From contig JAXKVY010000003.1 in NCBI GenBank assembly GCA_036172455.1, positions 1 to 64,000 on the forward strand: a stretch of 64,000 bases of DNA, given 5' to 3'. This stretch comes from Candidatus Izemoplasma sp. (GTDB taxonomy: Bacteria; Bacillota_I; Bacilli_A; Izemoplasmatales; Izemoplasmataceae). This document shows, piece after piece, positions 33,642 through 52,070 of this stretch. Under the pieces are notes generated by a model. It worked only from the letters and a program-made list of their open reading frames with translations. It did not search any database and was not told where the DNA came from. The position numbers and the translations under genes were made by a program. Every line of letters begins with the position of its first letter. Positions within the stretch are counted from its first letter, which is position 1.

Positions 33642-33652
33642 GACATGTAATA

Positions 33653-33820
33653 AGTATAGAGGCGCATTTGACAAGAGTACTGCCCATTCACTGATCAATT
33701 GAGTAGGTACGAAAGGGGAAAATGCCGAAGGTTAATACGATCTGATCAATCGGTTGACTTGGGACTAAGGAAAATATCTTTAGTACTCCATTATCTTGAT
33801 AATGAGGCGCTAATACTATT
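33653..33820 (+). promoter_or_regulatory. Lysine riboswitch (L-box)
   Basis: The segment carries L-box landmarks: 5' AGAGGCGC...AAGAGTA, the central GGGGAAAATGCCGAAGG, then GGGACTAAGGAAA and a closing ATGAGGCGCTAAT. The ends AGTAT (33653-33657) and ATACT (33813-33817) can pair as P1. Lysine binding would favour the terminator that follows and so reduce transcription of lysA-lysC-dapFABH. The class is well known; recognised by its conserved core sequence. Confidence 0.92.
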
Positions 33821-33836
33821 GAATATAATGTATTCA

Positions 33837-43985: not shown

Positions 43986-44017
43986 TTGCAGGAATGTTTT
44001 AAGTATGTTAATATACT
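43986..44017 (+). promoter_or_regulatory. Promoter of the histidine operon
   Basis: TTGCAG (43986-43991), 17 bases, TAATAT (44009-44014). An inverted repeat AAGTAT...ATACTT overlaps the -10 and might be an operator. Transcription would start near 44021 and so include the leader peptide. Confidence 0.55.
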
Positions 44018-44059
44018 TATGATACTTTAACGATGTAAAGCAATAAAGAGGTGCGAACT

Positions 44060-44101
44060 ATGAAGTCAATAAATTTAGTACAAGTACATCATCATTGGTA
44101 A
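44060..44101 (+). CDS. hisL: Histidine operon leader peptide (three consecutive His codons)
   Basis: A 13-codon reading frame, MKSINLVQVHHHW, ends at TAA 44099-44101 and has a strong ribosome binding site AAGAGGTG 6-7 bases before its ATG. The His codons are at 44087-44095. This is the layout of a ribosome-mediated attenuator: ribosomes stall at the His codons when charged tRNA-His is scarce. It lies within the leader of an intact his operon. Too short for gene callers. Confidence 0.85.
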   Translation: MKSINLVQVHHHW

Positions 44102-44112
44102 AAACGGGCTCT

Positions 44113-44211
44113 ATTTATAAACACAGTTTATAGATACAAGCCTATTTAATGATGAATGCTTGTATCTATCTAAAAGGTAACTTTAACTAGGTAGATAAAC
44201 CTAGTTTTTTT
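44113..44211 (+). promoter_or_regulatory. Histidine attenuator: mutually exclusive hairpins
   Basis: Four competing stems can be drawn. A:B pairs 44113-44122 with 44126-44135; B:C pairs 44130-44141 with 44158-44169 (12 bp perfect); C:D pairs 44163-44171 with 44189-44197; D:E pairs 44185-44191 with 44200-44206 and is the terminator with seven Ts. A ribosome stalled at His codons leaves A free, so A:B and then C:D form and transcription continues. A ribosome at the leader stop covers A, so B:C and D:E form and transcription stops. Drawn by eye; energies not computed. Confidence 0.75.
44185..44211 (+). terminator. Attenuator terminator of the his leader
   Basis: AACTAGG / CCTAGTT with an 8-base loop and a run of seven Ts, 20 bases before hisZ. 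Confidence 0.75.
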
Positions 44212-44230
44212 AATGGAAAGGACGATTAAT

Positions 44231-45163
44231 ATGATTAATATAAAAGAAGAACTAACATTTATTAAAGCACGGAACACGATTTTAAAACAGTTTGATAATC
44301 TTGCTGAAGAGAAAGGTTTTATTAAAGTTGAAAGTGATTATTTTGAGAATTATGATGATTTTAAAGAATTGAATCAACGACAAAACACAAAAGAATTCAT
44401 TAAAGTACAAGATTTAAGAGGGAATCTATTCTTATTACAACCTGATATAACTTCGAATATTATCAAACAAGTTATTCCAAGAATTGAATCGGATATGACA
44501 CTTGAGTTATTTTACTCTGATAATATCTTTTATTATGATGCTGGTGAAATTGTAACAAAACGACAATTTGGTGTAGAAGTCATCGGTGAAGAAGCTTTAG
44601 ATGCAGATGTTAAGATGATTCGATTTATTAAAGATATATTTGAAATTTATGAGATTGATTATGCGATTGAGATTGGTAATCAAGCGGTCATTAATATCAT
44701 CATACAAAATATGAATTTATCCCAAAAAGATGCCAACCAGTTGAAGCGGTTATTAATTGACAAAAACAAGCACGATTTAAAACGCTATTTGAGATCTAAA
44801 AACACAACAAACTACAATACGTTTTTACTTGCTTGCATAGATAAACAGAATCAATTAGATGAGTTAATTGATGATGTTAAGCGACTTCATTTAGATGAAC
44901 GTCTTTTATTAGAACTACAAAAACTAAATGATATAGCAAATGAGATAAAACAAGATAATGTATGGTTTGATTTGTCAATCGTAAATCAGTATGATTACTA
45001 TAATGGTCCCATTTATAAAGGCTATATTAAAGGATATAAAGAAGAAGTATTAAGTGGTGGAAGATATGACTACTTAACTGTTGAATTTGGATCTCTGACA
45101 AGAGCGCTTGGATTTAGTCTTGATATGAATGTCTTTATCAATGAGGTGATTAACAATGGCTAG
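44231..45163 (+). CDS. hisZ: ATP phosphoribosyltransferase regulatory subunit HisZ
   Basis: A 310-aa class-II tRNA synthetase paralogue that activates the short-form HisG and mediates histidine feedback. It resembles HisRS catalytic domains (LFLLQPDITSNIIKQV; SGGRYDYLTVEFG; RALGFSLDMN) but lacks the anticodon-binding domain. ATG 44231 follows AAAGGA; the ATG at 44213 is inside the terminator tail. Presence of HisZ agrees with the short HisG downstream. Confidence 0.92.
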   Translation: MINIKEELTFIKARNTILKQFDNLAEEKGFIKVESDYFENYDDFKELNQRQNTKEFIKVQDLRGNLFLLQPDITSNIIKQVIPRIESDMTLELFYSDNIFYYDAGEIVTKRQFGVEVIGEEALDADVKMIRFIKDIFEIYEIDYAIEIGNQAVINIIIQNMNLSQKDANQLKRLLIDKNKHDLKRYLRSKNTTNYNTFLLACIDKQNQLDELIDDVKRLHLDERLLLELQKLNDIANEIKQDNVWFDLSIVNQYDYYNGPIYKGYIKGYKEEVLSGGRYDYLTVEFGSLTRALGFSLDMNVFINEVINNG

Positions 45164-45776
45164 ATATTTAAAGTTTGCATTACCAAAAGGTCGACTAGCG
45201 GACAGTGTATTTAGTGTATTAGAAAAAGCTGGATACAAAATAGAAGTACCAAAGAAGACACGTAAACTTGTCGTCACAGATGAGGCGAATCAATTCAAGT
45301 ATTACTTTGTGAAGCCAAGTGATGTCGTGACCTATGTAGATGAAGGTGTTTGTGATATTGGTGTGGTCGGTAAAGATACCATTTTAGAAAGTAGTGCTTC
45401 AGTCTATGAGTTGTTCGACTTAGGAATAGGTAAGTGTAAAATGGTTGTTGCCGGGTTGCCAAACTATACCTATCAAGGAGAGTTACGCGTCGCAACAAAA
45501 TATCCAAAAATTGCTAGAGAATATTATGCAAAAACCAATCAAACAGTGAATATTGTAAAGTTAAACGGTAGTGTTGAGTTAGGTCCAATATTAGGCTTAA
45601 GTGATGTTATTGTAGACATATATGAAACCGGTAGAACACTTAGAGCCAATGGTCTTGAAGTCATTGACGACTTCTTAGATATATCCAGTCGTGTCATTGC
45701 GAACAAAGCGAGTTATAGACAAAAATACACCGAAATAAAAACCCTACTGAATCGCTTAGAACAAGAAGGTGAATAG
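45156..45776 (+). CDS. hisG: ATP phosphoribosyltransferase, short form
   Basis: A 206-aa enzyme catalysing the first step of histidine synthesis, ATP plus PRPP. Motifs: FALPKGRLADSV, the TYVDEGVCDIGVVGKDTI region and the PRPP-binding DVIVDIYETGRTLRANGL. The C-terminal regulatory domain of long-form HisG is absent, so activity needs HisZ. Overlaps hisZ by 8 bases. Confidence 0.95.
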   Translation: MARYLKFALPKGRLADSVFSVLEKAGYKIEVPKKTRKLVVTDEANQFKYYFVKPSDVVTYVDEGVCDIGVVGKDTILESSASVYELFDLGIGKCKMVVAGLPNYTYQGELRVATKYPKIAREYYAKTNQTVNIVKLNGSVELGPILGLSDVIVDIYETGRTLRANGLEVIDDFLDISSRVIANKASYRQKYTEIKTLLNRLEQEGE

Positions 45777-45777
45777 A

Positions 45778-47052
45778 ATGTTAACACAAATATTATTAGA
45801 AGATTTAGAAGAAACATTAGATATAGTCAATCAAAACGTTGAAGAAGAAACGCGTGTTGTAAAAGAGATTATTAAAAATATACGCTTGAACGGTGACTTA
45901 GCGCTTAAAGCCTATACAAAAAAATTTGATCATGTATCAATACAAGATTTTCGAGTGTCAGACAAAGAAATTAATGATGCGTATAATCGCTGTAGTAAGG
46001 AACTTATTGATGACCTTAAAACTGCGTATCAAAACATTACACTTTTTCACGAGGCACAAATCTCAGAAGGATATAAATTAAGCGTAAGTCAAGACAGTTA
46101 TGTCGGTCAAAAAGTCGTTCCGATTCAAGAAGTTGGATTATATGTTCCTGGGGGAACAGCTGCCTATCCATCAACAGTATTAATGAATGCCGCTCCTGCC
46201 AAGATTGCTGGTGTCAAAAGAATTGTCATGATCAGTCCCCCAGATAAAAAGGGAAATATTAAAGATATCATTCTAGCTGCGGCAAAAGTAGCTGGCATTG
46301 ATGAAGTCTATCGCTGTGGAGGAGCGCAAGGGGTTGCTGCACTAGCTTACGGTACAGAATCTATTCAACCTGTTAATAAGATTGTTGGACCAGGTAATAT
46401 CTTTGTTGCCTTGGCTAAAAAAGAAGTTTTTGGCAAAGTTGGTATTGATATGATCGCAGGCCCTAGTGAAATTTTAGTTTACGCAGAAGCATCTACTAAC
46501 CCTGAGTTCGTAGCCGCTGATCTATTATCACAAGCAGAACATGATATTAGAGCCCGTTCTATTTTAGTCTCAACATCACAATCATTAATAGACCAAGTGA
46601 ACAAGGTGTTAAGACAACAAACCGATAAATTAGAACGGAAGGCGTTTATCGAACAAGCATTGAAAACAGGGGGTATGGCTATTTTAGTAGATGATGATGA
46701 CGAAGCAATCGAAGTAATCAATCAAGTTGCCCCAGAACATTTAGAACTCTTAACAGATAACGCCGAAGCATTATCAAATGAAGTCATTAATGCAGGTGCA
46801 ATCTTTATTGGCCCATATTCTCCTGAACCGCTTGGTGATTATATCGCAGGTCCAAACCACACATTACCAACAAGTGGTACAGCGACATTCTCTCAGGCAT
46901 TAGGCGTTGATGATTTTGTGAAAAAGATGTCGTTGATTAAATATAGTAAAGAGAACTTATTTGACTATAAAGACAGCATTATGAGACTTGCTGACATCGA
47001 AGGACTAACGGCTCATAAAAATGCGATCAAGGTGCGATATGATGAAAATTAA
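45778..47052 (+). CDS. hisD: Histidinol dehydrogenase
   Basis: A 424-aa zinc enzyme performing the final two oxidations from histidinol to histidine. Signatures: VGLYVPGGTAAYPSTVLM, DMIAGPSEILVYA, DLLSQAEHD, and the C-terminal AGPNHTLPTSGTA. ATG 45778 follows GAAGGTGA and is 1 base after hisG; the GTG at 45769 lies in that site. Confidence 0.95.
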   Translation: MLTQILLEDLEETLDIVNQNVEEETRVVKEIIKNIRLNGDLALKAYTKKFDHVSIQDFRVSDKEINDAYNRCSKELIDDLKTAYQNITLFHEAQISEGYKLSVSQDSYVGQKVVPIQEVGLYVPGGTAAYPSTVLMNAAPAKIAGVKRIVMISPPDKKGNIKDIILAAAKVAGIDEVYRCGGAQGVAALAYGTESIQPVNKIVGPGNIFVALAKKEVFGKVGIDMIAGPSEILVYAEASTNPEFVAADLLSQAEHDIRARSILVSTSQSLIDQVNKVLRQQTDKLERKAFIEQALKTGGMAILVDDDDEAIEVINQVAPEHLELLTDNAEALSNEVINAGAIFIGPYSPEPLGDYIAGPNHTLPTSGTATFSQALGVDDFVKKMSLIKYSKENLFDYKDSIMRLADIEGLTAHKNAIKVRYDEN

Positions 47053-48064
47053 ACAAGCCATTCAAGCACTCAGACCTTATCAAGTTAATGACCTACAAGC
47101 AGATATTATTTTAAATGCCAATGAAACTAAAAACTACTTGTTTGATAAGGGCATTACACTCGATTTTAATACCAGTAAATATCCGAATACATTTGCTGAT
47201 TCACTAAGAGAGTCGCTGAGTAAGCAATACGCATTAGCACCAGAAAACTTTGTATTAGGTAATGGATCAACCGAATTATTAGAAATACTTGTAAAAACAT
47301 TCAGTGAAAAAAACGATACAGTACTTACATTCTCACCAACATTTTCAATGTATCAAATTTATGCTCAAATACATGAAGTAAAATACGAAACCATTCCGTT
47401 ACATTCTGATATGACATTGTCAATACAGACGTTAATTGAAGCAGATGACAAACTAAAACCAAGTATCATCTTTGTCTGTAATCCCAATAACCCAACAGGA
47501 ACATTAATTCCGAAAGAAGATATCATTCAGCTATTAAATAACACACAAGCACTTGTTGTTGTAGATGAAGCCTATATGGAGTTTGCTGATGAACAAGAAA
47601 GCCTTGTCGCAGAAATTGGTACGTATGATAATTTGATTATTGCAAGAACATTCTCAAAAGCATATGGACTGGCTGGATTGCGAATTGGCTATATGATAGG
47701 AAATACACAACTTATTGATACACTTTTCAAAGTGAAATTACCCTACAGTTTAAACCAAGCATCAATTCAATATGGGTTAAAAGCTCTTTCAAAAACGACG
47801 CAAGTGAAACAGTTTATTCGTAATTTAATCAAAGAAAGAGACATCTTATACAATCAACTAAAAGCATTAGATTTAACTGTGTATCCAAGCTCAACGAATT
47901 TTCTTTACATTAAAGCCAACCAACCCCTGGATGCACTATTATTAAAAAAAGGAATATTAATACGATCATTTAACAATGGGTACTACCGTATAACCATCGG
48001 TAATGCCACAGAAAATCAACGTGTGATTCAAGCATTAAAGGAGGTTTATCATGAGACAAAGTAG
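47039..48064 (+). CDS. hisC: Histidinol-phosphate aminotransferase
   Basis: A 341-aa class-II PLP aminotransferase. Motifs: LNANETKN, CNPNNPTGTLI, VVDEAYMEF and the cofactor Lys in RTFSKAYGLAGLRIGY. ATG 47039 (or 47042) follows AAGGTGCG and overlaps hisD by 14 bases. Confidence 0.94.
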   Translation: MMKIKQAIQALRPYQVNDLQADIILNANETKNYLFDKGITLDFNTSKYPNTFADSLRESLSKQYALAPENFVLGNGSTELLEILVKTFSEKNDTVLTFSPTFSMYQIYAQIHEVKYETIPLHSDMTLSIQTLIEADDKLKPSIIFVCNPNNPTGTLIPKEDIIQLLNNTQALVVVDEAYMEFADEQESLVAEIGTYDNLIIARTFSKAYGLAGLRIGYMIGNTQLIDTLFKVKLPYSLNQASIQYGLKALSKTTQVKQFIRNLIKERDILYNQLKALDLTVYPSSTNFLYIKANQPLDALLLKKGILIRSFNNGYYRITIGNATENQRVIQALKEVYHETK

Positions 48065-48629
48065 TTTAAATAGACAAACGAAAGAAACAGATATTAACGC
48101 AACGCTGAAATTAGATGGTAGTGGTAAAACTAAAATAAATACAGGGATAGGTTTCTTTGATCACATGCTGACAGCCTTTGCCTTCTATGCGAAGATCGAT
48201 TTAACAATTATGGTTAAAGGAGACTTAGCGGTAGATGATCACCACACAGTTGAAGATGTCGGGATTGTGATTGGTCAATTGATTAATAAGAGTCTAGGTG
48301 ACAAAAACGGTATCGCCCGATTTGCGTCGACTTTGACACCGATGGATGATGCTTTAGCAGACATCGCACTAGACATATCTAATCGTCCCTACTTAACCTT
48401 TAATGCTACGTTTACCCGTGAAAAAATAGGACAGTTATCACTTGAAAATGTTCAAGAGTTTTTCTATGCATTGATGATCGAAAGTCGTATGACATGCCAC
48501 ATCAATTTACGTTATTTTGAAAACAATCATCATGCGGTTGAAGCTATTTTTAAAGGATTCGGAAGAGCTTTAAATATGGCTAAAAGTATCACCGGTAATA
48601 CTGTTTCATCAACTAAAGGTGTTTTATAA
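48051..48629 (+). CDS. hisB: Imidazoleglycerol-phosphate dehydratase
   Basis: A 192-aa Mn-dependent dehydratase with the paired metal motifs GFFDHMLTAFA, DDHHTVEDVGI and FENNHHAVEAIFK. It is the monofunctional form; the phosphatase of enteric HisB is supplied by the PHP protein at the end of the operon. AAAGGAGG precedes the ATG; overlaps hisC by 14 bases. Confidence 0.95.
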   Translation: MRQSSLNRQTKETDINATLKLDGSGKTKINTGIGFFDHMLTAFAFYAKIDLTIMVKGDLAVDDHHTVEDVGIVIGQLINKSLGDKNGIARFASTLTPMDDALADIALDISNRPYLTFNATFTREKIGQLSLENVQEFFYALMIESRMTCHINLRYFENNHHAVEAIFKGFGRALNMAKSITGNTVSSTKGVL

Positions 48630-49231
48630 TGAATGTTATAATTGATTATAAAGTTGGTAATATTGGCTCAATATCACGTGGATTAGAACGTGCTGGTATT
48701 GAAGCGAAAATCAGTTCAGAAGCCAGTGACATCGAACAAGCAGATATCTTGTTTTTACCGGGTGTTGGCGCATTTAAAGATGCAATGCAAGATTTAGAGA
48801 AAACGGGGTTGATTCCACTGATTAAAACCCATGTAAAAAACGGTAAATTATTAGTAGGGATCTGTTTGGGTATGCAGTTATTATTTGATAGTAGTACTGA
48901 GTATGGTCAAACAGAGGGATTAGGGTTCATAACGGGGAATGTTATTTATTTAGATATCAATAAAAAAGTCCCACACATGGGATGGAATGAACTGCTGTTT
49001 AATCAAGAGGATAATATATTAAAAAATATTAATGAATCAGATTATGTGTATTTTGTCCACTCCTATTATGCTGATACGCCTTCTGAAAATGTTATTGCGT
49101 ATACAGACTATGAGATAAACATTCCTGCTATCGTAAGAAAAGATAATGTCATTGGCATGCAGTTTCATCCTGAAAAAAGTGGCCAAGTGGGACTGAAATT
49201 ACTACAGGCAATTAAGGAGATGGGACAATGA
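48629..49231 (+). CDS. hisH: Imidazole glycerol phosphate synthase, glutaminase subunit
   Basis: A 200-aa class-I glutaminase supplying ammonia to HisF. Nucleophile elbow GICLGMQLLF (Cys about residue 79) and catalytic His/Glu in MQFHPEKSG are present. Overlaps hisB by one base and hisA by 4. Confidence 0.95.
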   Translation: MNVIIDYKVGNIGSISRGLERAGIEAKISSEASDIEQADILFLPGVGAFKDAMQDLEKTGLIPLIKTHVKNGKLLVGICLGMQLLFDSSTEYGQTEGLGFITGNVIYLDINKKVPHMGWNELLFNQEDNILKNINESDYVYFVHSYYADTPSENVIAYTDYEINIPAIVRKDNVIGMQFHPEKSGQVGLKLLQAIKEMGQ

Positions 49232-49959
49232 TTATTTTTCCAGCCATAGATCTAATGGGGGGTAATGTTGTTCGATTACAACAAGGTGACTTTAAAGAAA
49301 AGACTATTTATAGCAGTAAGCCTGTTGAGATTGCCAAAGCCTATGAAAAAGCTGGTGCTACATGGCTTCATGTGATTGATTTGGATGGTGCAAAAACTGG
49401 TTCTCAGAAAAATGATGCTGTTGTAAAAACTATCATTGCAAACACATCATTAAAGCTTCAAGTAGGTGGTGGGATACGCTCTGTGAAACGGATTGAAACG
49501 TTACTAAACATGGGTGTTAACCGCGTTATATTGGGCACCTTTGCGATAAAAGAAATGGCTCTTTTACCGAGTTTAACAAAACGTTTCTCAGATCAAATCA
49601 TTGTGTCAATTGATGCGAAAGATGGCTATGTTACCTATCATGGATGGCAAGAAACATCTGCCAAAAGAACCATTGATTTTTGTCAAGATTTAAGTCAGGC
49701 AGGAATCAAAACCATTGTATATACCGATATTGCGAAAGATGGTATGATGGCAGGGCCTAATTTCAATGACTATCAAATACTTTCAGAAAAGACTAACTTA
49801 AATGTTATCGCTTCTGGTGGTGTGAGTACTTATAACGATGTTATAAAATTAAGTCAAATGGACTTATATGGTGCCATTATAGGGAAAGCACTATACACAG
49901 AAGATATCAGTATAAAGGAGGCAATTCTATGCTCGCAAGACGCATCATCCCCTGTCTAG
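49228..49959 (+). CDS. hisA: ProFAR isomerase
   Basis: The 243-aa TIM barrel isomerises the aminoaldose ProFAR to PRFAR. The start [14 protein letters not shown] carries the catalytic Asp (residue 8) and [14 protein letters not shown] the second Asp. Its C-terminus overlaps hisF by 31 bases. Confidence 0.94.
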
Positions 49960-50690
49960 ATGTTAAAGATGGACGTGTGGTAAAGGGATCACAATTTCAA
50001 GATTTAAAAGATGTCGATGATGCTAAAAAACTCGGAAAACGGTATAGCCTTGAAGGAGCAGATGAACTTGTATTTTATGACATCACAGCTTCGCATGAAG
50101 CACGAGAAATATCCTTACAATTCGTAGAAAAAGTAGCTGAAGAAATTAATATTCCATTTTGTGTAGGTGGTGGATTAAAAACGATAGATGATATTGCTAA
50201 TGTGTTGAATAAAGGAGCTGACAAAGTTTCGATAAACTCAGCCGCAATCGATAATCCCAATTTGATTAAAGAAGCATCAGAAAAATATGGTGCTCAATGC
50301 ATTGTACTATCAATGGATGTTAAACAAATCGATAATGAGTATATTGTCTTTAAAAACGGCGGACGTGTAAATACAGGTCTAGATGCACTTGAGTGGGCTA
50401 AAAAGGGTGTTAAACTGGGTGCTGGAGAACTTGTCATTAACAGTATGAATCATGATGGCATGAAACAAGGTTTTGATATGCCATTATTAAAGAAGATTAC
50501 TCAACTTGTATCTGTTCCAGTAATCGCATCAGGTGGCGCTGGAAGCATTCAAGATTTTGTCGAATTAGCTAAATCAACAGATGTGGATGGCTACTTAGCC
50601 GCTAGTGTGTTCCACTATAAGGAAATCGCAATCGATAATTTAAAAGAAACATTAAAACAAAACAATATACCAATACGTATAGAGAGGTGA
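49929..50690 (+). CDS. hisF: Imidazole glycerol phosphate synthase, cyclase subunit
   Basis: A 253-aa TIM barrel partner of HisH, making imidazole glycerol phosphate and AICAR. Signatures: [16 protein letters not shown] (catalytic Asp11), [34 protein letters not shown] precedes the ATG, inside hisA. Confidence 0.96.
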
Positions 50691-50694
50691 CACT

Positions 50695-51294
50695 ATGACA
50701 CTACAATTTAATAAAGATGGGTTAATCCCAGTTATTGTACAAGATGTTTATACGAATGAAGTGCTTATGTTAGCTTATATGAATCAAGAGGCTTACACTA
50801 AAACAATAGATACAAAAGAAATGGTCTACTATAGTCGAAGTAGACAAACACTATGGAAAAAAGGTGAAACATCAGGGAATATTCAACGGTTAACGAGTCT
50901 ATCATATGATTGTGATGAAGATACCTTGCTAGCTAAAGTGGAACAAGTTGGCGCAGCTTGTCATACAGGTAATAAAACGTGTTTTTACCGTGATGTTTAT
51001 AATAATAATCGGGTGGCAAACGATACCATCTTACCCATTTTATTCAACGTTATAAAACAAAAGCAACAAAACCCTGATGGTGGGTATACCAACTATTTAT
51101 TTGAAAAAGGGATTGATAAAATTCTTAAAAAGGTCGGTGAAGAAGCGAGTGAAGTGATTATCGCATCTAAAAATAACAATGAAGAAACGATTTATGAAAT
51201 TAGCGATTTATTTTACCACTTGCTGGTATTAATGGTGAATAATGGCATCGAACTTAGTGATATCTTTAAGGAACTGAGTAGTCGGAGAAAATGA
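50695..51294 (+). CDS. hisIE: Bifunctional phosphoribosyl-AMP cyclohydrolase / phosphoribosyl-ATP diphosphatase
   Basis: A 199-aa fusion. The HisI half has [20 protein letters not shown], the zinc-binding DCDEDT region and CHTG; the HisE half (from about residue 110) has [15 protein letters not shown] and [10 protein letters not shown]. It carries out steps two and three of the pathway. Starts 4 bases after hisF with GAGAGGTGA. Confidence 0.95.
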
Positions 51295-52070
51295 TCCATT
51301 TTACAAAAGACTCACACATTCACACCCACTATTCTCCAGATGCTGATCAAGAAGCAACTTTTTCAAAATACATCAAAGCTGCCGAAAAAATAGGATTAAG
51401 TGAAATTACCTTTACCGATCATGTTGACTTTGATGCGAAACATCCACTTTTTTACGATATGATCGATTATGATAATTATATCAATGCATTTAATCAAGCA
51501 AAAAAAGAAGCCAAAATCAGAGTTCGTTTAGGGGTAGAAATAGGGTATCAATCACATATGGCAAAGACCATCAATGCATTTATAAAAACCTATCCTTTTG
51601 AGTTTGTCATTTTATCAATTCACTATGTTGAACAGAAAGATCTCTATACACAAGAGTATTTTGAATCTAAAACAAAACAAAAGGCTTATCAAATGTATTT
51701 TGATACTGTCCTTGATGCGATTAATAACATTGAACAATTTGATGTTATTGGTCATTTAGATTATATTACACGATATAGTCCATTTGGTGATTATGATTAT
51801 CCCATATATAAAAAACAGATTGATTACATTTTAAAAGCTTTAATTGAAAGAAAAAAAGGAATTGAAATTAATACATCGGGTCTTATCAAAGAAAACAGAC
51901 CTTATCCTAAAATTTCTGTTATTAAGCGGTTCATTGAATTAGGTGGTCAAACCATTACACTCGGTTCTGACAGTCATCAAATATCAGAGTTAGCTCGTGG
52001 ATTCGATCACATAAATACATTATATAATAATGAGATTAAAGGCATGCTGTTCAAAAACAATAGCAATTAA
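51291..52070 (+). CDS. hisK: Histidinol-phosphatase, PHP family
   Basis: A 259-aa metal-dependent phosphatase hydrolysing histidinol phosphate. PHP-domain metal ligands: [32 protein letters not shown] and GSDSHQ. It supplies the step missing from the monofunctional HisB and completes the pathway. Overlaps hisIE by 4 bases; last gene of the operon. Confidence 0.92.

Follow-up and report, generated by a model that had tools for sequence, protein, structure and literature searches.

Control of the his operon at this locus raises a simple question: does a short peptide with three successive His codons, encoded just upstream of hisZ, set the level of transcription through ribosome-mediated attenuation, and if so, does it act alone? 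We addressed this for a stretch of 64,000 nucleotides (the window), which forms part of the 1.69-Mb genome (G000) of a wall-less-type bacterium, an Izemoplasma relative, in family f1. An earlier note on this DNA had proposed such an attenuator, and our analysis makes it very probable that control of the his operon combines a six-segment (P, A, B, C, D, E) ribosome-mediated transcription attenuator with a site for the HisR repressor at the promoter.

Leader peptide and RNA stems upstream of hisZ

The leader ORF with three consecutive His codons and the strong ribosome binding site described in the earlier note were both present as claimed (Table 1). Short ORFs bearing HHH are by themselves not rare (seven on the two strands of the 64-kb window), and the weight in favor of an attenuator lies in the combination of features and their conservation rather than in this ORF alone. 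The -35 and -10 elements were read by eye and were not returned by a consensus promoter scan, and we therefore grade this promoter as weak; transcription from the putative his promoter would be expected to start near 44021. The hisZ start lies 20 bases 3' of the terminator T-run and 129 nt from the leader stop codon, while the ORF listing gives a longer hisZ frame beginning at 44213. The attenuator precedes hisZGDCB(H)AF(IE), a complete his operon reaching to about 52 kb. We take the genes after hisG to be hisD, C, B, H, A, F and IE, and the PHP-type phosphatase in the operon is presumably HisK, with these names drawn from knowledge of the families. Elsewhere in the window, a lysine riboswitch (RF00168, 80.8 bits) was observed at 33649-33821 on the forward strand.

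Table 1. Features of the his leader and operon in the window (positions are those of the window).
Feature	Position	Strand	Basis or remark
Putative promoter: TTGCAG (43986-43991), 17-nt spacer, extended -10 TGtTAATAT, hexamer 44009-44014	43986-44014	+	Read by eye; inference
Putative HisR operator TACTTTAACGATGTAAAGCA	44023-44042	.	11/14 matches, core 8/8; at expected transcription start
Shine-Dalgarno AAAGAGGTG of leader peptide	44045-44053	+	Read from sequence
Leader peptide ORF MKSINLVQVHHHW, then stop	44060-44101	+	Translation; stop TAA 44099-44101
Segment P, GTACAAGTA + CATCATCAT; partner 44148-44166 without ribosome on leader	44078-44095	+	Folding; own-versus-swapped test
His codons CAT CAT CAT	44087-44095	+	Read from sequence
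Segment A; partner B	44106-44122	+	Folding
Segment B, contains ATAGATACAAGCC; partner A or C	44126-44143	+	Folding, covariation
Segment C, GCTTGTATCTAT, hub; partner P, B or D	44158-44169	+	B:C compensatory changes
Segment D; partner 44163-44171 (antiterminator) or E	44189-44197	+	Own-versus-swapped test
Stem A:B	44106-44122/44126-44143		
Stem B:C	44130-44141/44158-44169		12 bp, perfect
Stem C:D	44163-44171/44189-44197		
Stem D:E	44185-44192/44199-44206		
Intrinsic terminator D:E, stem 44185-44206 (8 bp, loop 6), T-run 44207-44211	44185-44211	+	Computed
hisZ, first gene of controlled operon	44231-45163	+	TIGR00443 is best family, score under curated cut-off
Rest of his operon, hisG onward	45156-52070	+	Overlapping or adjacent ORFs; hisG is TIGR00070

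Folding of the region gave z-scores of -3.6 (44103-44212) and -5.0 (44040-44212), and none of 200 shuffles was equally stable in either case. The four mutually exclusive stems, the U-tailed terminator and its distance of 20 bases from hisZ all held up, while a further pairing had been missed in the earlier note. In the fold of the whole leader, the His-coding segment P pairs with the loop and core of C and thereby encloses the hairpin A:B, so that C has three partners (P, B and D), B has two (A and C) and D has two (C and E).

We sought hisZ in 49 genomes of family f1 and could read the upstream DNA at 22 of the hisZ loci. At 20 of these, a His-run leader ORF was followed by the same downstream arrangement. 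The attenuator was absent at the other two (G026 and G028), and a HisR-type gene was found in both of these genomes. A search of genome contigs with hisG returned a single close MAG, 'Bacillales bacterium KhS_metabat.25' (HisG 85% identical), whose contig begins within hisZ. In the 29 leaders compared below, 108 of the 473 codons encode His.

A first RNAalifold analysis of a plain MAFFT alignment recovered only a 5-bp helix, owing to the three partners of C and the variable spacing, and the stems were therefore tested individually. For each stem we compared the pairing energy of a segment with its own partner to that with a partner swapped between leaders (29 leaders, 5000 permutations, kinship ignored). 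Own partners paired better in P:C (-13.7 versus -10.3 kcal/mol), B:C (-12.5 versus -10.0), C:D (-8.6 versus -6.4) and D:E (-15.2 versus -5.4), and for none of the four stems did any of the 5000 permutations do as well. Restricting the permutation to the same copy class again gave 0 of 5000 for P:C, B:C and C:D. Taken leader by leader, P:C was weak (z above -2) in 8 of the 29, including L005 of the cultured relative, and C:D, the weakest stem singly, reached z < -2 in just 8 of these leaders. Covariation in B:C was measured in 42 leaders aligned with the model, of which 14 had played no part in building it. Compensatory changes were observed in six of nine pairs (0 of 500 shuffles) and 90.7% of cells were paired, compared with 30-41% in slid versions, in an alignment that was fitted to B:C, is hence favorable to this stem, and ignores kinship. 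The His codons and the stems B:C and C:D are thus conserved in relatives with covariation, the opposite of the lack of conservation that the earlier note had named as speaking against its reading. The loop between B and C (44142-44157 in the window) is also conserved in sequence in the 29 leaders, as GCCTTTATnnnCGTG or GCCTATTT..., to a degree not fully explained by pairing, and could be a pause or tertiary motif.

Ribosome position and the choice of stem

A ribosome with a given codon in its A site has its front edge about 12-13 nt further on. The first His codon was located 16-27 nt and the last 9-16 nt 5' of segment A in all 29 leaders, and in the window A begins 13 nt past the first base of the last His codon, so that A is masked once the ribosome reaches the stop codon. 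In every one of the 29 leaders, A is left free by a stall at the first His codon and loses at least 4 nt to the footprint of a ribosome that has arrived at the stop codon. Folding with the ribosome masked gave leader averages of 0.80 for A:B and 0.16 for B:C with the ribosome at the first His codon, and of 0.07 and 0.86, respectively, with the ribosome at the stop. Geometry and masked folding therefore both agree with the order of stems proposed earlier, in which a stall at the His codons favors readthrough and a completed leader favors termination.

Removal of the ribosome footprint, suggested earlier as a check, reproduced the switch between A:B and B:C, but the terminator probability at equilibrium moved modestly in the window (0.75-0.82 stalled, 0.99 at the stop, 0.95 without a ribosome). 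Averaged over leaders it rose from 0.86 stalled to 0.98 at the stop, a shift that was right in direction and small in size. The strong terminator won in every state at equilibrium in many relatives, and terminator probabilities at equilibrium did not on their own reproduce the switch in all leaders. Given this modest shift, we infer that switching must rely on the order of stem formation.

When histidyl-tRNA is ample, the ribosome would pass through the His codons, reach the stop codon and cover A; B would then pair with C, leaving D free for E, and transcription would terminate 5' of hisZ. When histidyl-tRNA is short, the ribosome would stall at the His codons, blocking the pairing of P and leaving A free, so that A would pair with B, C would be freed for D, no terminator would form and the operon would be transcribed. 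With no ribosome on the leader, P:C would form around A:B and the terminator would form as well. In genomes with HisR, the histidine-bound repressor would additionally block the promoter.

The conserved sequence of the B:C loop (GCCTTTATnnnCGTG and similar), which goes beyond base pairing, would suit a leader that acts as a riboswitch or binds a protein, sensing histidine directly and yielding the peptide as a by-product. We consider this improbable, since the His run is in frame and has a Shine-Dalgarno sequence, the spacing matches the ribosome footprint in 29 of 29 leaders, and the stems are simple and mutually exclusive. Regulation could also fall mainly to HisR, with the leader serving for translational coupling (reinitiation) or as a plain terminator without a histidine response, as the HisR box and gene in G000 and the strength of the terminator at equilibrium might suggest. 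We rate this lower still, because 25 attenuator genomes without HisR and its box keep the full structure with covariation, and because the distance from the leader stop to hisZ is too far for simple coupling. A His-specific T-box sensing uncharged tRNA-His, next to an accidental HHH ORF, has practically no standing: T-boxes are abundant in family f1, and his genes of Lactobacillales and some Erysipelotrichales are under T-box control (PMC9413887), but the RF00230 model gave no match at the locus at the gathering or a relaxed threshold, and conservation in the 29 leaders extends to the His-codon ORF, its ribosome site and the distance to A. The RF00230 model had 15 matches elsewhere in the 1.69 Mb of G000, a positive control that bears out the earlier note in seeing no T-box consensus here; the his operon of this genome is nonetheless ribosome-attenuated. 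No Rfam family reached its gathering score at the locus and a relaxed search gave chance-level matches only, and the covariance model of the enteric His leader (RF00514) had no match there, relaxed threshold included.

Putative HisR operators and tandem attenuators

The earlier note had overlooked not only the pairing of the His codons but also the HisR operator and the presence of tandem copies in some relatives. The published consensus of the HisR operator is cacTTTAnnnnnnTAAAgtg, a 20-bp palindrome (PMC9413887), and the operator-like box of the window contains an exact ACTTTA-N6-TAAAG at 44024-44040. A HisR-type gene is located at C1:184700-184954 of G000 (PF01371, 92.6 bits; TIGR02531, 126 bits). 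Its product falls within TIGR02531 (YerC/YecD family) and under the TrpR equivalog cut-off, and has 3frw, 3kor and 3g1c as PDB relatives.

Among 34 attenuator genomes, we scored boxes that lay 5' of the leader ORF and matched the consensus at 11/14 positions or better, and counted as HisR genes those encoding a PF01371 protein above cut-off. The box was observed in all nine genomes with a HisR gene (G000, G001, G044, G045, G048, G070, G376, G129 and G146) and in none of the 25 others (Fisher 2e-8, kinship ignored). Boxes of at least 11/14 occur at 7 of about 64,000 window positions, which corresponds to a chance of about 1% per 120-nt region. This exact co-occurrence of box and gene suggests a repressor plus an attenuator as in E. 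coli trp, with the his operon of the window under predicted HisR binding in addition to attenuation. Histidine-dependent binding to a HisR site has been shown for the R. gnavus HisR only (PMC9413887). The cultured relative that carries both HisR box and attenuator is most likely Xianfuyuplasma coldseepsis zrk13 (PMC8397711).

Genomes with HisR contained about seven ACTTTA-N6-TAAAG sites each, compared with about three for the reversed pattern; a recurring site near a phosphoesterase and a surE-like gene was inspected and dropped. At L089 (G026:C3), hisZ lacks an attenuator and has a HisR-type gene directly upstream, and the DNA between the two genes contains a perfect HisR box; in this arrangement the repressor would appear to take the place of the attenuator.

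In 9 of the 20 family loci (L007, L010, L011, L012, L013, L014, L016, L017 and L018), hisZ is preceded by a serial pair of complete His attenuators. The peptides at one such locus are MQSINNVQVHHHLTKV in the first copy and MKTLQTLMHHHHMNRFAI in the second, and second copies encode MHHHH or YTHH types, compared with VQVHHH in first copies. On a tree of leader copies the second ('b') copies mostly group together, and at least two changes are needed on the tree. Swapping partners between the two copies within a genome gave worse pairing of P:C in 9 of 9, B:C in 7 of 9 and C:D in 8 of 9 tandem loci, and each copy is therefore largely self-contained. All nine tandem loci belong to genomes without a detected HisR gene, but as this is likewise true of six single-copy family loci, the link between doubling and lack of HisR is only suggestive.

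A limited search of the open-access literature found nothing closer for tandem amino-acid attenuators or for HisR combined with attenuation. As far as that search shows, a serial pair of amino-acid-specific ribosome-mediated attenuators before one operon is undescribed, and both the tandem attenuators and the pairing of HisR operator with attenuator look new.

Distribution in the class and known systems

We used a core covariance model (R1) to search the family, the order, the class and a sample of the phylum. R1 matched at hisZ in 20 genomes of family f1 and, beyond it, in one genome of a second family in the order and in genomes of families f10, f12 and f15 in the class. All 14 places inspected outside f1 (L070-L083) were located 5' of hisZ with a His-run ORF, and one more match, in G184, lay outside the inspected set. 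No match outside the class was found in the sample of 392 phylum genomes with this model, which may be too narrow for other classes. A weak match in G012 (E 0.002) proved not to be a leader, and a minus-strand match at 44132-44224 of the window was no second element but the element's own palindromes read backwards. At L075 (G146), a group II intron (RF02001/RF01998) was observed at 1727-2008, between the attenuator terminator and hisZ.

Comparable leaders have been reported before. Ashniev et al. (2022, PMC9413887) describe His-leader attenuators in the B. cereus group, Peptostreptococcaceae/Lutispora and Erysipelotrichales; attenuators were sought there only where HisR and T-box control were missing, tandem T-boxes are discussed and tandem attenuators go unmentioned in the available text, and Izemoplasmatales, the order to which f1 most likely belongs, is not among the orders listed. 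A His leader peptide was also reported before hisZ and before a hisS paralogue (hisS*) in bacilli (Naville & Gautheret 2010, PMC2965389). Like the window element, the Firmicutes His leaders of PMC9413887 have a short peptide with three to five consecutive His codons, followed upstream of the his operon by hairpins that serve as attenuator, antiterminator and terminator, and our class-level matches, f15 above all, may correspond to its Erysipelotrichales group. With these reports, and with an architecture common to the class that precedes hisZ in at least five families, the earlier proposal of an independent occurrence in this lineage is unsupported. An origin independent of enteric hisL is plausible, given that RF00514 does not match.

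The classic enteric his leader has six segments, with the second pairing with the third and the fourth with the fifth upon a stall, and the third with the fourth, along with the terminator, when the ribosome reaches the stop. The window element would adopt the same states (A:B and C:D upon a stall, B:C and D:E at the stop), but sequence kinship is not detectable, and without a ribosome it would form the long-range P:C around A:B where enteric hisL pairs neighboring segments. To our knowledge, enteric his has no HisR-type repressor. The his operon of the window also resembles E. coli trp, a single biosynthetic operon governed both by a TrpR-family repressor acting at the promoter and by a leader-peptide attenuator located behind it, although the amino acid and leader RNA differ and the repressor here is of the HisR/YerC subfamily, with predicted binding. 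In Salmonella mgtCBR, the two ORFs sense different signals. Tandem T-boxes and mgtCBR (PMC3641672) share with the tandem his loci two serial terminators before one operon, but tandem T-boxes bind tRNA directly, whereas both his copies are His-codon ribosome-mediated attenuators.

A T-box-preceded trpB-like gene was observed divergently beside the attenuated his operon in the cultured relative (L130, G045) and in G010 (L131). The two amino-acid sensing systems adjoin in these genomes, and the his attenuator persists beside abundant T-boxes.

The element is a real attenuator of a known type, and what is new is its combination with HisR and its doubling in relatives. Across at least five families of this low-GC Gram-positive class, ribosome-mediated his attenuation rests on a single covarying RNA element that is widely shared, as opposed to scattered inventions. 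For histidine biosynthesis in the class we moderately favor a modular stack built on this shared six-segment His attenuator, with a HisR operator as the added layer in some lineages and another complete attenuator in others; doubling may then compensate for a lost repressor. The contribution of repressor and attenuator layers is now under study in E. coli trp (PMC13178558). The three natural arrangements seen here, attenuator alone, HisR plus attenuator, and attenuator twice, would allow a comparison of what each layer brings to control in range, sharpness and burst size.
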